IMG/VR virus record: IMGVR_UViG_3300042937_000044
Location: 1 to 27,845 of that record
Source of the DNA: a virus
Reading direction: 5' to 3' (one strand)
DNA length: 27,845 bases
Shown here piece by piece: positions 7,285-26,697 of the stretch. The notes beneath the pieces were generated by a model. That model searched no databases and had not been told where the DNA came from. It saw nothing but the letters and a program-made list of their open reading frames with translations. The position numbers and the translations under genes were made by a program. The number at the start of each line of letters is the position of its first letter. The first letter of the stretch is position 1.

Positions 7285-9933
7285 ATGGCAATTACTAATG
7301 CAGACATATTGGGATGGCTTAACGCCAATCCTAATGCTAATGATGATCTTATTTATAAGACAATGGTAGAGGCTGGTGTAACCACTGAACAATACCTGTC
7401 TGCTACTGGTAAGCCACTTCCTAGAGGAACTTCTACCTCTCAAGTAACCAATGCGGATATTTTGGGATGGTTCAATGCGAATCCTGGCGCAAGTGATGAG
7501 CTGATCGCCAGAACAATGCAAGAGGCGGGAGTATCTCCCACTCGTCTAGCAGAGGTAACTGGTGCGCCTGTTGCAGAGGTTGTCAATCGTTATCAAGCGG
7601 CAATTGCTGCTCCTGTTGCTCCAACAGTTGCGCCTTCTGTTGCCCCTCCTCCTCCAGAGAGATTGCTTGGTGGCCCTGTACAAATGCCCCCTCCAGTGCC
7701 GACTGTAACTAACGCTGACATTCTTGGATGGTTTAACGCTAATCCAAATGCAAGTGATGAACTTATTGCTCAAACAATGAAAGAGGCAGGAGTAACTCCT
7801 ACTCGTTTAGCACAGGTTACTGGCGCACCTGCGGCAGATGTTGCGGTTAGATATGCTACGGCATTATCGCCAACTGTTACTGACTATCAGGGTGCAGTAT
7901 ACGATACTGCAACTATTCTTAAATTAGCTCAACAGATTACTCCATCCATTGATCCTAATGCAGTAAGAGGTGGAGTTTTTAAAACTTCTGGAGAAAGTGT
8001 TGGCTTTAATTATGATGAAGCCTCTAAGATTCTTGGTAAAGCCCCAACTGCGGCAGAACAAGTTGTCTTGGATATGGCTCGTCATTTGGCAAAAGAAGGT
8101 GTTACTGATCTTAGCCAAGTAGATGCAACTGAAACAAATAGACGTTTTGGTTCTACCTTTACAGGCGGTGGCGGTACTATTTATGAGATTAAAAAGGATG
8201 CTGAAGGCAAGCCTATTATCTCTACATGGAGTAAAGACACAAGCGATAAGAAAACCATTTTGACTGGTTTGGCATTAGCGGCACTTGCATTTGGTATACC
8301 TGGTGTTTCCGAAGGATTGTTAAGTACTGCACCTGCTGGTGCAACAATAGGTACAACAGCTTTAACAGCCGCAGAAGCCGCAGGATTAGGTCTAACAGCC
8401 GCAGAAGCGTCAGCATTAGGTTTATCAGCGGCAGAGTTTGCGGCAGCTAGTGTAGGGCCTGGTTTGCTAACAACGGCTCAACTTGCTCAACTTGATCTTG
8501 CATTAGGTGGTGCGGGTGGTACTCCTGGTGCAACAAGCCTTGCGGGGGGTTTAGCTACTGGTGCAACAATTCCGACAATTACGTCTTTGACTGGTGGTAG
8601 TGGTCTTCTTACTGGTGCGGCAGGTGGCATTACTGCTGAATCTGTGGCGGCTAAATTAGCGGCAGATGCGGCTACACAAGCACAACTTCTTAATGCGGGT
8701 GCGGGTGCGTTTACACCTACTTATGTTCCTCCAACAACTACACCAGGATTGCTAACACCTACTGTTGTTCCTCCTACTGGAGTGCCACCTGTTGGAGTTC
8801 CCCCTACTGGAATTCCTCCATCACTTATCAATGCAGGTGTATCAACCGCAGTAAATAGTCTTCTGGGTACTGGTGGAACAACAAACATTCCTAATCTGAT
8901 TTCTGGTGGACTAGGCACAGCAGGTAATCTGCTTCAGATGCAAGAATCTAGGGAAGCGGCTCAAAGAGCGCAAGCCCGTATTGATGCTGAAACTGCGGCT
9001 GCTAAAGCATCTGCGGCTTTTAGACCTGTTGGCATGACTACTCGCTTTGGTACTTCACAATTCCAAGTCGATCCAGTAACAGGTCAGTTGACAAGCGCAG
9101 GGTACACACTAAGCCCTGAAGCCAAAGCACAACAAGACAGGTTCATGGCTTTGTCTCAACAAGGTTTGACTCAAGCTGAACAAGCACAAGCACAATTTGC
9201 TCCTCTTCAAACAGGTGCTCAAAGGTTGTTTGGTCTTGGTAATCAATACTTGGCTCAATCTCCTGAAGCAGTTGCACAGAACTATCTCAATCAACAGATG
9301 GCTTTGTTGCAACCAGGCAGAGAGTTAGAGTTAGCTAATCTGCAAAACAGACTCCAACAACAAGGCCGTGGTGGTTTGGCTGTTGCTCAAGGTGGTGCTT
9401 ATGGTGCTACAACCCCTGAACTACAGGCTTTGTTTAATGCTAGAGCGCAACAAGAGGCTGTCTTGGCGGCACAGGCTCAACAAGCGGGTCAACAACAGGT
9501 TGCTTTCGGTGCAGGATTGCTTGGTACAGGTGCTCAAACAATGGGTCAGTACTATGGTGGTCAACAAGCCGCTTATGCTCCTTACACAACTGCAATGGGT
9601 CAAGTTCAAGGCTTAGAGGCTTTAGGTCAACAACCTTTCCAAATGGGCGCACAACTTGGTCAAACAGCATCTACTGCGGGAGCAAGAGTGGGTCAATTAG
9701 GTTTGCAAGGTGCGGGGCAAAGCGTAGCCTTGGCGACAGGTGCAGATGCAACTAGAAATCTAGGCGCTCAAAGTCTGATAGCGGCAGGTAATCCTAATGC
9801 TCAGTTTGGTTCAGCAATAGGTGGATTGCTTGGTGGTGGCCTTCAGTCAGCATTTAGTGGAACTGGTTTAGGTGCATCAGGCTTCGGAACTGGTCTAGCC
9901 TTTGGAAATCAAGACCTCGGCTTATATTTGTAA
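7285..9933 (+). CDS. Large Ala/Gly/Gln-rich putative internal virion (DNA-ejection) protein (882 aa)
   Basis: GGAG (7273-7276) precedes the ATG with an 8-nt spacer. Three N-terminal repeats start TNADILGW-NANP (residues 4, 55 and 142), each about 45 residues with DELIA-TM-EAGV and a final ATG/VTGAP; a Pro-rich linker lies between the second and third. A hydrophobic segment near residues 325-345 is followed by long Gly/Ala/Thr-rich and Gln-rich regions and a Gly-rich tail. With the next two genes it forms a trio of large low-complexity proteins after the fibre gene, as in podoviruses that eject internal proteins. No lytic transglycosylase motif was seen. Confidence 0.68.
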   Translation: MAITNADILGWLNANPNANDDLIYKTMVEAGVTTEQYLSATGKPLPRGTSTSQVTNADILGWFNANPGASDELIARTMQEAGVSPTRLAEVTGAPVAEVVNRYQAAIAAPVAPTVAPSVAPPPPERLLGGPVQMPPPVPTVTNADILGWFNANPNASDELIAQTMKEAGVTPTRLAQVTGAPAADVAVRYATALSPTVTDYQGAVYDTATILKLAQQITPSIDPNAVRGGVFKTSGESVGFNYDEASKILGKAPTAAEQVVLDMARHLAKEGVTDLSQVDATETNRRFGSTFTGGGGTIYEIKKDAEGKPIISTWSKDTSDKKTILTGLALAALAFGIPGVSEGLLSTAPAGATIGTTALTAAEAAGLGLTAAEASALGLSAAEFAAASVGPGLLTTAQLAQLDLALGGAGGTPGATSLAGGLATGATIPTITSLTGGSGLLTGAAGGITAESVAAKLAADAATQAQLLNAGAGAFTPTYVPPTTTPGLLTPTVVPPTGVPPVGVPPTGIPPSLINAGVSTAVNSLLGTGGTTNIPNLISGGLGTAGNLLQMQESREAAQRAQARIDAETAAAKASAAFRPVGMTTRFGTSQFQVDPVTGQLTSAGYTLSPEAKAQQDRFMALSQQGLTQAEQAQAQFAPLQTGAQRLFGLGNQYLAQSPEAVAQNYLNQQMALLQPGRELELANLQNRLQQQGRGGLAVAQGGAYGATTPELQALFNARAQQEAVLAAQAQQAGQQQVAFGAGLLGTGAQTMGQYYGGQQAAYAPYTTAMGQVQGLEALGQQPFQMGAQLGQTASTAGARVGQLGLQGAGQSVALATGADATRNLGAQSLIAAGNPNAQFGSAIGGLLGGGLQSAFSGTGLGASGFGTGLAFGNQDLGLYL

Positions 9934-22680: not shown

Positions 22681-22899
22681 ATGAACACACAAATACCACC
22701 AGATGAGCGCCGACAACTGGCAGAAAAAGTTGGCATTAACGAGCAGTACCTTTACCAGTGCCTGACAGGGCGCAGGGAGATGTCAGCGTGGGAGGCTGTC
22801 AGAGTGGAGCAGCAGAGCGAAGGGCGGCTGACTCGGCAAATGGTCTGTCAGGGCAGTTGGCAGTCTATTTGGCCTGAGTTGGTGGAGGCACAACAATGA
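22681..22899 (+). CDS. YdaS/Cro-like helix-turn-helix regulator (72 aa)
   Basis: The protein contains RRQLAEKVGINEQYLYQCLT then GRREMSAWEAVRVEQQSEGR and WQSIWPELVEAQQ. This is the YdaS-type HTH layout: two helices for DNA reading, G-R-R-MS, then E-x-x-S-x-G-R and an IWPEL end. Such proteins act as Cro-like regulators of phage early genes. It is read from the divergent region with phased operator half-sites, and its ATG has no ribosome site. The stop overlaps the primase-helicase ATG. Confidence 0.82.
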   Translation: MNTQIPPDERRQLAEKVGINEQYLYQCLTGRREMSAWEAVRVEQQSEGRLTRQMVCQGSWQSIWPELVEAQQ

Positions 22900-24986
22900 C
22901 TAACCTAACAACAATATTCCCCAACGGCTTTGCAGTTGCCACAGAGAGCCAAGACCTGATCAACCCTGAAGAGGGGTTCAGAAGGCATTGTGAGGCTGCG
23001 GGTCTTGTGATCAAAGACCAGATCATTGCAGATGGTGAGATTCACAGGGTGGCTCATGTATCTTCCAAGAAAGGTGCATTGGATGGTTGGTACATCTTGC
23101 ATTCCAGTGGCAAAGTGCCTGTTGGCATTGCAGGGTGTTGGAAAGAACCAGTGTTTGAGAGCAAATGGGTGGCAGATACTGGCAGGCAGATGTCGTTCAC
23201 TGAGCGCTTTGAGCATGACAAGTGGATCGCAGACGTTAAGGCTAAGAAGGAAGCTGACAGGCTGGCTAGTCAGGCGGTGGCAGCAGAACGTGCAGAGGAT
23301 GAGGTTGGGACTTATGCAGATGCGTCTGACGATCATCCATACCTTGTGAGGAAACATATCCAAGCTCATGGGATCAAGATTGATCGTGCAGGTAGGTTGG
23401 TTGTGCCTGTGATCAACCAAGGTGGGGAAATCCTAAGTTACCAAACCATTGATGCAGATGGCAACAAAAGGTTCTTGAAGGGTGGCAAGATTGAGGGTGG
23501 ATTTTACGAGTTGCGAGGGAATCGGAAGATTGTGTTCATTGGTGAGGGTTTTGCAACCTGTGCATCGATCCATGAGGCAACAGACTACACAGTTCTTGTG
23601 GCGTTTGATTGTGGGAACTTAGCCAAGGTAGCGAAGAGTGCCAAAGAGATGTTCCCAGGCTCGAAGATCATCATTGGCGCTGACAATGACCAGTTCACGG
23701 AGGGCAACCCTGGTGTGGCAAAGGGCAGGGCTGCGGCGGCTCTGGTGTTTGGGGAGATTGTTTACCCATCATTTGGAGAGTCTGACATGGTGGACAACAA
23801 ACCAACAGACTTCAATGACCTTCACTGCCTGCAAGGTCTGGATGCAGTCAAAGAGCAGATTGAGCGCGTAGCAGGCCCAATGCGGGACAAGTTGGCGTTT
23901 GAGTTCACTCGGGCAGATAACTTACAACTTAGCCAGATCAATTGGATTGTCGATGATTACATTGAGAGTGACTCCCTAGCGCAAGTGTTCGGTGACCCAG
24001 GCGGTGGTAAGAGTTTTGTCTCCATCGACATTGCCTGCTGCGTAGCAACAGGAAAGCCTTGGCATGGGCATGAGGTCAAGCAGGGCAGTGTGTTCTACAT
24101 TGCCGGAGAAGGTCATAACGGCCTTGCAAGGCGGTTCAAGGCATGGCAGTTGGGAAATGGTCAGACATTGGATGGAGCGCCTTTGTACAAGAGCCATAGG
24201 GCGGCGCAGTTGTACGATGCAACCGAAGCGGCTGTTGTGGCTGAGAGCATCAAGGAGCTTTCAGCGCAAGCTGGGACTGTCCCTAGCCTGATCATTATTG
24301 ATACTTTAGCCAGAAACCACGGCGGTGATGAGAACTCCACCCAAGACATGAATGCCTTTATCCAGCATCTGGATGTTTATCTGCGCCAACCTTGGAAATG
24401 CTGTGTCTTGGTGGTTCACCACTCAGGCGTGGCAGATAAGGATCGTAGCCGTGGGTCAACCGCCCTGAAGGGTGCGCTTGATGCAGAGTATCGCTGCCAG
24501 TTGGATTCGGGAACTAAAACCATAGCCTTTGAATCTAAGAAAATGAAAGATGCAGAAATGCCTGCACCTAAGAACTTTCAGATCACTCAGGTTGACCTGC
24601 CCATCCAAGACAAAAACGGATCGCCAGTTCGGGGTGCATACCTTACGGCGGTGGACATCAGCGGCCTGACTAACTCAATCCAGAAGAAAACCTATCTCGC
24701 AGGCAACCAAAGGAAAACCCTAGACTGCTTGGTTTCAATCCAAATGAACCATGAAAAGAACGGCATTGTGGACTTGGTGACCTACGATGAGTGGCGCGAA
24801 TCTGCCAAAGAACATGGCATCAAGTCCAACAGGTTTAGGGAAGTTGTGGACAGTTTGGTCAAAAAATTACTGGTTCTTGAGGACTCCAAAGGCTATAGAA
24901 TTAAGCCAAATGATGGGAAGATCATTGAACCGAAACTTACCGAATCGGTAACCGAATCGGCTAATTCGGTTGAACCGAAACTATGA
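22896..24986 (+). CDS. Primase-helicase: Toprim plus RepA/DnaB-like ATPase (696 aa)
   Basis: It begins at an ATGA overlap. Residues about 210-310 form a Toprim domain (VFIGEGFATCASI with E217; GADND with D263 and D265). Residues about 345-560 form a RecA-type helicase (Walker A GDPGGGKS at 366-373, Walker B LIIIDT at 465-470, later VLVVHHSG). The fusion resembles plasmid and phage RepA-type replicative primase-helicases. No N-terminal CHC2 zinc finger was seen. The final 20 residues (EPKLTESVTES and on) are encoded by the CCGAA array and look like by-products of it. It probably initiates replication nearby. Confidence 0.87.
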   Translation: MTNLTTIFPNGFAVATESQDLINPEEGFRRHCEAAGLVIKDQIIADGEIHRVAHVSSKKGALDGWYILHSSGKVPVGIAGCWKEPVFESKWVADTGRQMSFTERFEHDKWIADVKAKKEADRLASQAVAAERAEDEVGTYADASDDHPYLVRKHIQAHGIKIDRAGRLVVPVINQGGEILSYQTIDADGNKRFLKGGKIEGGFYELRGNRKIVFIGEGFATCASIHEATDYTVLVAFDCGNLAKVAKSAKEMFPGSKIIIGADNDQFTEGNPGVAKGRAAAALVFGEIVYPSFGESDMVDNKPTDFNDLHCLQGLDAVKEQIERVAGPMRDKLAFEFTRADNLQLSQINWIVDDYIESDSLAQVFGDPGGGKSFVSIDIACCVATGKPWHGHEVKQGSVFYIAGEGHNGLARRFKAWQLGNGQTLDGAPLYKSHRAAQLYDATEAAVVAESIKELSAQAGTVPSLIIIDTLARNHGGDENSTQDMNAFIQHLDVYLRQPWKCCVLVVHHSGVADKDRSRGSTALKGALDAEYRCQLDSGTKTIAFESKKMKDAEMPAPKNFQITQVDLPIQDKNGSPVRGAYLTAVDISGLTNSIQKKTYLAGNQRKTLDCLVSIQMNHEKNGIVDLVTYDEWRESAKEHGIKSNRFREVVDSLVKKLLVLEDSKGYRIKPNDGKIIEPKLTESVTESANSVEPKL

Positions 24987-25125
24987 ACCGAATTAACCGA
25001 AACTTACCGAAACTTACCGAAACTGGAAGCCCAAACAGTCGGTATTTCGAACCGAAACTTACCGAAAGGGTATACATACCCATTCGGTTTCGGTTCGTAA
25101 ACTGTTTCGGTTCGGTTCGGTTCGG
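24929..25125. repeat. Iteron-like CCGAA array, candidate replication origin
   Basis: Seventeen CCGAA/TTCGG pentamers lie in 197 bp. Ten are in the + orientation (first at 24930, last at 25062). Seven are reversed (one at 24965, then six from 25083 to 25121). The 10-mer ACCGAAACTT is exact at 24929, 24996, 25006 and 25051, with variants between. Start-to-start spacing in the left half is mostly 9-13 bp, about one helical turn. The array begins inside the last codons of the primase-helicase gene and runs into the following spacer. Such phased repeats beside a replication gene are typical of iterons. Binding by the primase-helicase is inferred. Confidence 0.75.
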
Positions 25126-25186
25126 TTTTTGGGAAATCGGGCAAGGTTGGGAAAGTTGGGAGTTGGTTGGGAGTTGGCATGATTGA
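24983..25186 (+). CDS. Questionable 67-residue frame within the CCGAA array
   Basis: It begins at an ATGA overlap with the primase-helicase stop and runs through the array. The product is low-complexity (NRINRNLPKLTET, RFRFVNCFGSVRF), as expected from reading a CCGAA repeat. The fused start is the only support, and the protein would be a product of the repeats. I include it as possible but think it more likely non-coding. Confidence 0.25.
   Translation: MNRINRNLPKLTETGSPNSRYFEPKLTERVYIPIRFRFVNCFGSVRFGFWEIGQGWESWELVGSWHD
25061..25088. repeat. 28-bp inverted repeat at the switch point of the CCGAA array
   Basis: Thirteen-base arms (25061-25073 and 25076-25088) differ at one position and are separated by two bases. 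Each arm holds one ACCGAA motif outward and GGGTAT inward. To its left motifs are nearly all CCGAA, to its right all TTCGG, so it is the axis of the array. It could be a cruciform, a dimer-binding site or a strand-opening point. Confidence 0.7.
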
Positions 25187-25526
25187 GGTCAGAATGAACA
25201 TGAAGATTGTCAGTGTGGCGAACATGAGATTGCATTGGGCGGTCAAAGCGAAGTTGACGAGGGATCAGAGAACGAGGACTCGGATGAGCTTGGCTGCTGT
25301 GGCTCAGTCTTCTGGCGTGGAGATGCTTCCGGCGACTGTGGTTTTGACCAGAGTTGCGCCAAGGCGCTTGGATGGGGATAATTTGCAGTCTGGGTTCAAA
25401 GCAGTCAGGGATGGTGTCGCTGATTGGCTTGGCGTGGATGATGGCAATCGTCTGGTGGATTGGCAGTATGCCCAAAGGTCAGGCAGGCCAGGCGAGTACG
25501 CTGTGGAGATTGAGGTGATAAGATGA
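25179..25526 (+). CDS. RusA-like Holliday-junction resolvase (115 aa)
   Basis: ATG at 25179 follows GGGAG by 6 nt. A second ATG at 25194 also has a GAGG site, so the start is uncertain. The core, VAPRRLDGDNLQSGFKAVRD then GVADWLGVDDGN, carries the Asp residues (LDGDN, KAVRD, DD) of RusA-type endonucleases. The protein then has a W-x-YAQ-x-GEYAVEIEV end. RusA resolves four-way junctions before packaging, which fits a replication-recombination cassette. Confidence 0.8.
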   Translation: MIEVRMNMKIVSVANMRLHWAVKAKLTRDQRTRTRMSLAAVAQSSGVEMLPATVVLTRVAPRRLDGDNLQSGFKAVRDGVADWLGVDDGNRLVDWQYAQRSGRPGEYAVEIEVIR

Positions 25527-25871: not shown

Positions 25872-25923
25872 ACTGGTTGGATGGTTTGCTTATTCCTCAC
25901 AAATTTTTGGTACACAAAAGTGT

Positions 25924-25965
25924 ATACAGTTTGGTATGCAGTTTTGAATACAGTTTGGTATGCAG
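25924..25965 (+). repeat. 18-bp direct repeat pair with 24-bp period
   Basis: ATACAGTTTGGTATGCAG is found at 25924-25941 and 25948-25965, with six bases between. GGTATGC recurs a third time at 25965-25971. A small inverted repeat (TACAC/GTGTA, 25911-25924) lies just upstream. It may be an iteron-like or protein-binding element of the adjacent DnaA-box region. Confidence 0.75.
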
Positions 25966-26032: not shown

Positions 26033-26121
26033 TTATCCACAAGGGTCTTGTTCAACTTGTCCACAGTTTGCTGTGGATAACTTGCTGAGTACAAACAAAG
26101 TATTCAAATATCTGTGGATAT
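26033..26121. other. DnaA-box cluster (two perfect, two near-perfect), candidate origin
   Basis: TTATCCACA is perfect at 26033-26041 (+) and at 26072-26080 (-). TTGTCCACA lies at 26057-26065 (+), and ATATCCACA at 26113-26121 (-), each one mismatch from the box. The second and third together form an inverted repeat with 10-bp arms (26057-26080, one mismatch). AT-rich DNA follows. Four boxes in 89 bp are unlikely by chance and suggest host DnaA acts here in replication or terminase regulation. Seen in sequence; function inferred. Confidence 0.7.
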
Positions 26122-26304
26122 CTTTGCTTCAACTTAACATAATGGTCATTGTATAAAGCAGAATCGGGAAAACCCTTGGTTTTGGGCGGTTTTGCATGGG
26201 GGGGAGGGGGTCGGCCTCGCCGTGATAATTGTAGGTACACCCCACCCACCGAAAAAGCGAAATGGACTACAATTGCCCAAACCCATCTTCCCGAAAGGAA
26301 AAAA

Positions 26305-26697
26305 GTGGAATTCACCCCTGCAACTGAAGAGAGAAAGAAAAAGCCTGGTCGTCCCAAGGGTTCGGTCAAGATGACCATTCAGCGCTATGCGAACAACCCA
26401 CCCAAGGTATTGCCCAAGACGGATCACCAGCGCCTCAAAGAGTTGAAAGAACTAATGATCCGGTCTGGCGGTAAGGATGTAGCGCAGAAGGTGATTGACA
26501 TTGCGCTCAACGATGACCACCCAGGCCAGATGGCAGCGCTCAAGATGTGCATTGACAGAACACTACCGATCTCAATGTTTGAGAAAGACAAGAGCCAAAG
26601 GTCAGCAGTCACGATCAATATCACTGGTTTGGGGCAAGAGCCAACGATCATCGACACCTCTGATGAGCCTCAAGACGTAGAGGCTAAATATGGCTGA
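26305..26697 (+). CDS. Terminase small subunit (130 aa), GTG start
   Basis: The open frame extends back to 26149, but AAGG (26295-26298) sits 6 nt before the GTG at 26305 and the upstream translation is Gly/Pro-rich non-protein-like sequence. The product begins MEFTPATEERKKKPGRPKGS, a basic AT-hook-type DNA-binding arm, followed by helices (DHQRLKELKELMIRSGGKDV, DDHPGQMAALKMCID) as in phage small terminases that recognise the packaging site. The stop overlaps the large terminase start by 8 nt. Confidence 0.78.
   Translation: MEFTPATEERKKKPGRPKGSVKMTIQRYANNPPKVLPKTDHQRLKELKELMIRSGGKDVAQKVIDIALNDDHPGQMAALKMCIDRTLPISMFEKDKSQRSAVTINITGLGQEPTIIDTSDEPQDVEAKYG

Follow-up and report, generated by a model that had tools for sequence, protein, structure and literature searches.

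A cluster of short repeats at the 3' end of a primase-helicase gene is very likely the initiator-binding part of a phage replication origin. Its reader appears to be the winged-helix tail domain of the enzyme encoded beside it, and the cluster is very probably the point at which copying of the phage DNA starts. The cluster was found in a sequence that makes up the whole of an IMG/VR virus record (27,845 bp, hereafter the window). The initial annotation had read iterons beside a replication gene as an origin, and the comparative evidence presented here supports this reading as the best explanation.

The repeat array and the primase-helicase gene

Between positions 24929 and 25125 the window contains 17 exact copies of CCGAA or its complement TTCGG within 197 bp, ten of them direct and seven inverted, the exact copies lying at 24930-25125. 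This confirms the initial observation. When the complete window was shuffled 500 times with dinucleotides preserved, the highest number of motifs per 197 bp was five (mean 2.4), and unrelated 5-mers were nowhere in the window clustered to a comparable extent. The left arm of the array (24929..25066, + strand) is composed of ten direct CCGAA copies (ACCGAAACTT units) and one inverted copy at 24965. The right arm (25083..25125, - strand) consists of six inverted repeats, of which the final four follow one another in tandem as 5-bp TTCGG units. The order described at first, ten direct and then mostly inverted copies, was found with one of the inverted copies inside the left half. From left to right the motifs are spaced by 10, 12, 13, 10, 13, 9, 10, 10, 35, 10, 21, 6, 17, 5, 5 and 5 bp. 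A phasing of about one helical turn in the left half is borne out only loosely by these spacings, which vary there between 9 and 13 bp, and the best-fitting period of 11 bp (R=0.82) was picked post hoc.

The switch point of the array is marked by a 28-bp inverted repeat without strand (25061..25088), which pairs at 12 of 14 positions. Six of the pairs make up an inner stem (GGGTAT/ATACCC); after one A.A mismatch, six more make up an outer stem that is formed by an inverted pair of the repeats. The inner stem belongs to the central hairpin GGGTATACATACCC (25068..25081, no strand). With about 56% AT the array is not notably AT-rich, the only TA-rich part being the centre of the hairpin. The array begins at codon 678 of the 696 codons of the primase-helicase gene and therefore encodes the last 19 residues of the protein; it extends 139 bp beyond the stop codon, so that the claim of an array running from the coding sequence past its stop is upheld.

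The gene (22896..24986, + strand) encodes a primase-helicase of 696 aa with Toprim_3 and AAA_25 (RSF1010 RepA-like) domains according to Pfam and PHROGs. The Toprim_3 primase domain covers residues 213-314 (23532..23837, +; Pfam E 1.6e-9) and the AAA_25 RecA-type hexameric helicase domain covers residues 339-513 (23910..24434, +; Pfam E 5.5e-38). These were the only Pfam domains in the protein; neither a SaPI/PICI-type Rep nor a superfamily 3 helicase was matched. Profile comparison showed a match of the helicase core to RSF1010 RepA (1g8y, E 1.2e-8, profile 341-496). Among the surrounding genes covered by the Pfam and PHROGs scans, at 17-26 kb, none matched a RepC or RepB' family, and no Rep_3 domain was detected by Pfam in the scanned genes.

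The AlphaFold2 model of the whole primase had a mean pLDDT of 41 with only the C-terminal domain usable, and this domain was then refolded separately. The resulting winged-helix model (local pLDDT about 80–89) displays the order helix-helix-helix-strand-strand. Top Foldseek matches of the C-terminal model were winged-helix domains including those of ORC2, MCM8 and Cdc6, although all matches were above E 0.05 and none reached E<=0.001. The domain spans residues 601-672 (24696..24911, +) and ends immediately ahead of the array. We propose it as the reader of the repeats on the basis of AlphaFold2, Foldseek and the co-variation described below.

Directly upstream, and overlapping the primase gene, lies a gene for a small YdaS/Cro-like HTH regulator (22681..22899, +), which matches Pfam YdaS_toxin at E 1.3e-4, below the curated cut-off, and the repressor family PHROG 35. 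The first gene past the array (25179..25526, +) encodes a RusA-like resolvase (PHROG 9203, E 9.5e-4, a weak match). A divergent recombination block with Sak4, SSB, a Cas4-type nuclease and a helicase is located nearby. Beyond the RusA gene, 3.7 copies of a 12-bp direct repeat GTATACAGTTTG were found at 25922-25965, followed by a cluster of DnaA boxes. Motif scanning placed a perfect box TTATCCACA at 26033..26041 (+), listed with a one-mismatch box TTGTCCACA at 26057-26065, and a second perfect box TTATCCACA at 26072..26080 (-), listed with a one-mismatch box ATATCCACA at 26113-26121. A TTG-start ORF without PHROG match occupies the small-terminase position (26149-26697); in the relative L070 a different protein is encoded there. 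Elsewhere in the window an 882-aa ORF (7285-9933), the first residues of which match a head fibre family, contains a coding 30-bp tandem repeat at 8363-8435. A host search by scanning genome contigs yielded no relative.

Conservation and co-variation of the repeats

Absence of the array from close relatives that keep the gene had been named initially as a finding that would speak against the origin reading. Eighty near relatives were compared, and an array is present in each of the 78 that have a complete primase gene, so that the reading was not refuted. The fusion of array and gene holds for the window but is not obligatory, since in 12 near relatives the primase is separated from the array by at least one other gene and the array is nevertheless retained. 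Accessory genes are inserted in different lineages (L040, L050, L057, L062, L067, L068, L070, L077 and L079), forming a kind of cargo slot beside the putative origin; by eye they are PAPS-reductase-like, adenine-methylase-like or other. Flanks and core of the repeats vary in concert within each genome (TTACCGAAAC, GTACCGAA, GCACCGAA, CGTCCGGA).

A distant set was made up of 80 further relatives together with Alteromonas phages XX1924 and PB15, Salicola phage CGphi29 and Idiomarinaceae phage 1N2-2. In most of these the corresponding position is taken by an array with a different core (TGAACC, TGTACC, TGTCCC, TGACCC, CCCCCT, GGTAAC, GGGAAC and GGTCCG). At least seven copies of one 6-mer per 300 bp were counted downstream of the primase at 125 of 160 loci compared to 6 of 278 control stretches, while some distant relatives, e.g. 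L382, L400, L411, L413 and L414, had no clear array by the 6-mer method. The ACCGAAACTT core of the window represents one of at least 12 cores that are specific to lineages; the mirrored layout around a hairpin is conserved instead. Scans of the whole collection for the patterns CCGAA-N5-CCGAA and GTCCG-N5-GTCCG matched many contigs and served as leads.

Repeat classes were defined by the commonest 6-mer. Co-variation was determined for the whole C-terminus first and then for the winged helix alone, because in some phages the array encodes the last residues of the protein. For 27 dereplicated near relatives the Mantel r with the repeat profile was 0.888 for the winged helix, 0.313 for the primase body, 0.175 for RusA and 0.022 for the upstream HTH protein, and the winged helix retained a partial r of 0.876 given the other three proteins; the Mantel permutation ignores shared ancestry, which is the same for the RusA and HTH controls and was controlled only through the other proteins and trees. 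By parsimony, the 12 repeat classes of 85 loci require 11 changes on the winged-helix tree, which is the theoretical minimum, versus 30 on the body tree. For 38 near relatives the corresponding numbers are 3 and 11, the count on the body tree being no better than shuffled labels, which average 10.6.

Two relatives, L062 and L068, share 99.2% protein identity over the body (residues 1-590), 100% identical HTH proteins and 95% DNA identity through the body and again at RusA. Their winged helices are 45% identical and their repeat similarity is 0.00. Judged from these alignments the pair is a natural swap. For L070 and L079 the intervening methylase gene is alignable in parts, but the flanking winged helix and array are not. 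Within one sub-family a SAKQY helix is accompanied by GGTAAC arrays and a SAKVY helix by GGGAAC or CGGAAC arrays; a few neighbouring residues vary along with Q/V, so that Q/V is one of several candidate contacts. As far as can be judged from sequence comparison, the repeat core tracks the C-terminal winged-helix domain of the primase exclusively among the proteins compared. Domain and repeats appear to change together across related phages, giving at least 12 different matched pairs, and this co-variation strongly predicts binding of the winged helix to the repeats.

Mirrored layout, DnaA boxes and possible functions

In the lineages examined direct repeats are followed by a hairpin with variable stem and then by inverted repeats. 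Across 24 lineage cases picked by hand, 84 cores were direct and 16 inverted within 60 bp to the left of the central palindrome, compared to 3 direct and 60 inverted cores within 60 bp to its right. Pairing percentages of the palindromes are biased because these had been selected for pairing, and a comparison of stem lengths with controls was used in their place. With the repeat itself barred, the longest perfect stem had a mean length of 8.1 bp in array regions, 5.6 bp in primase genes and 5.2 bp in shuffles. The stems (GGGTATACATACCC, GTGCTTATAAGCAC, GAACGTGTCTATAGACACGTTC, ACACACCTTTAGGTGTGT) vary in sequence, while self-complementarity and a TA-rich centre are kept. L374 and L340 have the same hairpin between different repeats; hairpin and reader specificity therefore constitute separate modules. 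A terminator scan listed the palindrome as well, but the tail ATTCGGTTTC lacks a T-run and none followed the palindrome in the relatives inspected, so that the hairpin does not represent an ordinary terminator.

The distribution of DnaA boxes is, in our view, independent evidence for an origin. In the clade of the window, 30 of the 31 near relatives left after dereplication have them 0.5–1.5 kb beyond the array, the distance in the window being about 1 kb. In the distant relatives 69 perfect TTWTCCACA boxes were counted in 17.7 kb of array regions (29 of 61 loci) versus 3 in 285 kb upstream, corresponding to a 370-fold enrichment. L339, L340, L374, L397 and L398 each have two perfect boxes before the array and one after. 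TTWTCCACA was not found near the array of the Alteromonas phages PB15 and XX1924, the array of PB15 lying at about 19.7–20.0 kb of KX982260. The DnaA-box stretch of the window (26033-26121) is conserved yet inverted in L024, L020, L013 and L010, in which blastn aligned it on the opposite strand. GC skew, which had been proposed as a check, did not discriminate: in the window, PB15 and CGphi29 the turning points are found near the divergent gene switch (1–3 kb away from the array in PB15 and CGphi29) and are uninformative for the origin.

Binding of the primase-helicase to the repeats could also serve mainly regulation, i.e. autorepression, transcription or copy number, with the origin located elsewhere, for example at the downstream DnaA boxes. 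The conserved box cluster beyond the array in the clade of the window and the fact that the array usually adjoins the 3' end of the gene in the relatives would be compatible with this, but we consider it unlikely, since the boxes of distant relatives flank the array itself on both sides. The array is moreover found downstream of the gene and not at a promoter, it stays intact despite intervening genes, and the hairpin lacks the T-run of an ordinary terminator. It is very unlikely that the array serves DNA packaging as a cos/pac site, with the small terminase as its reader, or that it serves partition. The gene at the small-terminase position does begin about 1 kb downstream of the array, but the repeat class follows the winged helix of the primase and loci that share their repeats have different genes adjoining the array. 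Still less probable is an operator of the upstream HTH protein: the low Mantel r given above shows HTH divergence to be unrelated to repeat class, and L062 and L068 combine identical HTH proteins with unrelated repeats, even though YdaS/Cro-like proteins bind repeated operators and the HTH gene lies immediately before the primase gene, with which it overlaps. That the repeats are a functionless product of slippage, as the 5-bp tandem run at the right end might suggest, is hardly conceivable given the conserved mirrored orientation, the self-complementary hairpin, the joint change of the repeats in step with a single protein domain, and the retention of the array beside inserted genes.

In the favoured reading, in which the array is the place where the initiator binds, the short repeats would be bound by the winged helix at the C-terminus of the primase-helicase, and this binding would gather several subunits at the two oppositely oriented arms. 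The RepA-type helicase could then assemble on either side of the TA-rich hairpin and would presumably melt the DNA there, and after opening the Toprim domain would prime. Such double-hexamer loading, with two oppositely loaded hexamers, would give rise to two forks and bidirectional replication. Help probably comes from host DnaA, the boxes of which flank the array in distant relatives and lie about 1 kb past it in the window.

Relation to known replicons and implications

By analogy, the array resembles P4 alpha-ori, SaPI/PICI Rep-ori, SCCmec Cch2 and RSF1010 in function, while the window system lacks a defining feature of each of P4, SaPI/PICI and RSF1010. The helicase of P4 alpha belongs to superfamily 3 and P4 requires a second site, crr. 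The helicase of the window is instead of the RecA-type AAA_25/RepA family, and its array is mirrored around a hairpin with DnaA boxes present. According to the account given in PMC4234260 (citing Ziegelin and Lanka 1995, Yeo et al. 2002), P4 alpha unites a Toprim-type primase, a helicase and a C-terminal winged helix binding the origin repeats in one protein; the window protein is similar in its Toprim_3 domain (E 1.6e-9) and predicted C-terminal winged helix. The Rep-ori of SaPIs and PICIs is located just 3' of the initiator-helicase gene with short repeats read by the C-terminal domain of the helicase, PICIs contain two sets of iterons, and the iteron of SCCmec Cch2 is 5 nt long (PMC6092414, PMC7581432). 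The array of the window likewise lies immediately 3' of a putative initiator gene and has two opposed repeat sets. However, SaPI/PICI and Cch2 use another helicase family and are elements, not full phages, and PICI iterons flank an AT-rich stretch whereas the repeats of the window flank a hairpin of which the centre is TA-rich.

RSF1010 oriV combines iterons with the short stem-loops ssiA/ssiB (PMC4234260). The RepA-type hexameric helicase is homologous to that of the window protein (1g8y, E 1.2e-8), but in RSF1010 separate proteins read the iterons (RepC), unwind (RepA) and prime (RepB'), whereas primase, helicase and proposed reader are one chain in the window. The pRN1 plasmid and the BIP-1 phage encode a primase-helicase with C-terminal winged helix and have a downstream stem-loop of conserved structure and variable sequence (PMC4234260). 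The winged helix, a predicted one in the window, and a stem-loop 3' of the gene are shared with the window; an archaeo-eukaryotic primase, an SF3 helicase, the lack of iterons and a stem-loop of about 100 nt are not. Rep_3 iteron plasmids also have DnaA boxes near the repeats (which flank the array in our distant relatives and are about 1 kb from it in the window), but they use iterons of about 17–22 bp and a Rep_3 initiator, compared to repeats of 5–10 bp and no Rep_3 here. SV40 and papilloma origins contain short inverted repeat groups. Their initiator-helicases, large T antigen and E1, read their own origin and have an N-terminal DNA-binding domain (PMC7581432); they differ from the window protein in the position of this domain and are unrelated to it. 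Among the titles and abstracts retrieved from a mainly open-access literature collection, none described the arrays.

As a tentative proposal, to which we give somewhat less than even weight, the conserved body of the enzyme may take at least 12 interchangeable winged helices as plug-in readers, each with its mirrored array and a hairpin loading two opposed hexamers. Domain and array would be swapped together, even across an intervening gene. This would produce origins that do not cross-react and may bar co-infecting phages or satellites from each other's replication protein.

Besides those of P4, SaPI and a few plasmids, not many origins of elements carrying a self-contained primase-helicase are, to our knowledge, known. 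The arrays also mark a probable origin in the sequenced isolates PB15, XX1924, CGphi29 and 1N2-2, the records of which contain no origin annotation in the stretches viewed. The family also offers candidate replicons that do not cross-react. At least 12 pairs of reader and repeat occur in it naturally. Some of them belong to nearly identical enzymes between which the reader has been swapped, and in one case the residue at a single helix position (Q or V) accompanies one base of the repeat. The specificity of initiators for their origins, and how it evolves, therefore become directly testable.
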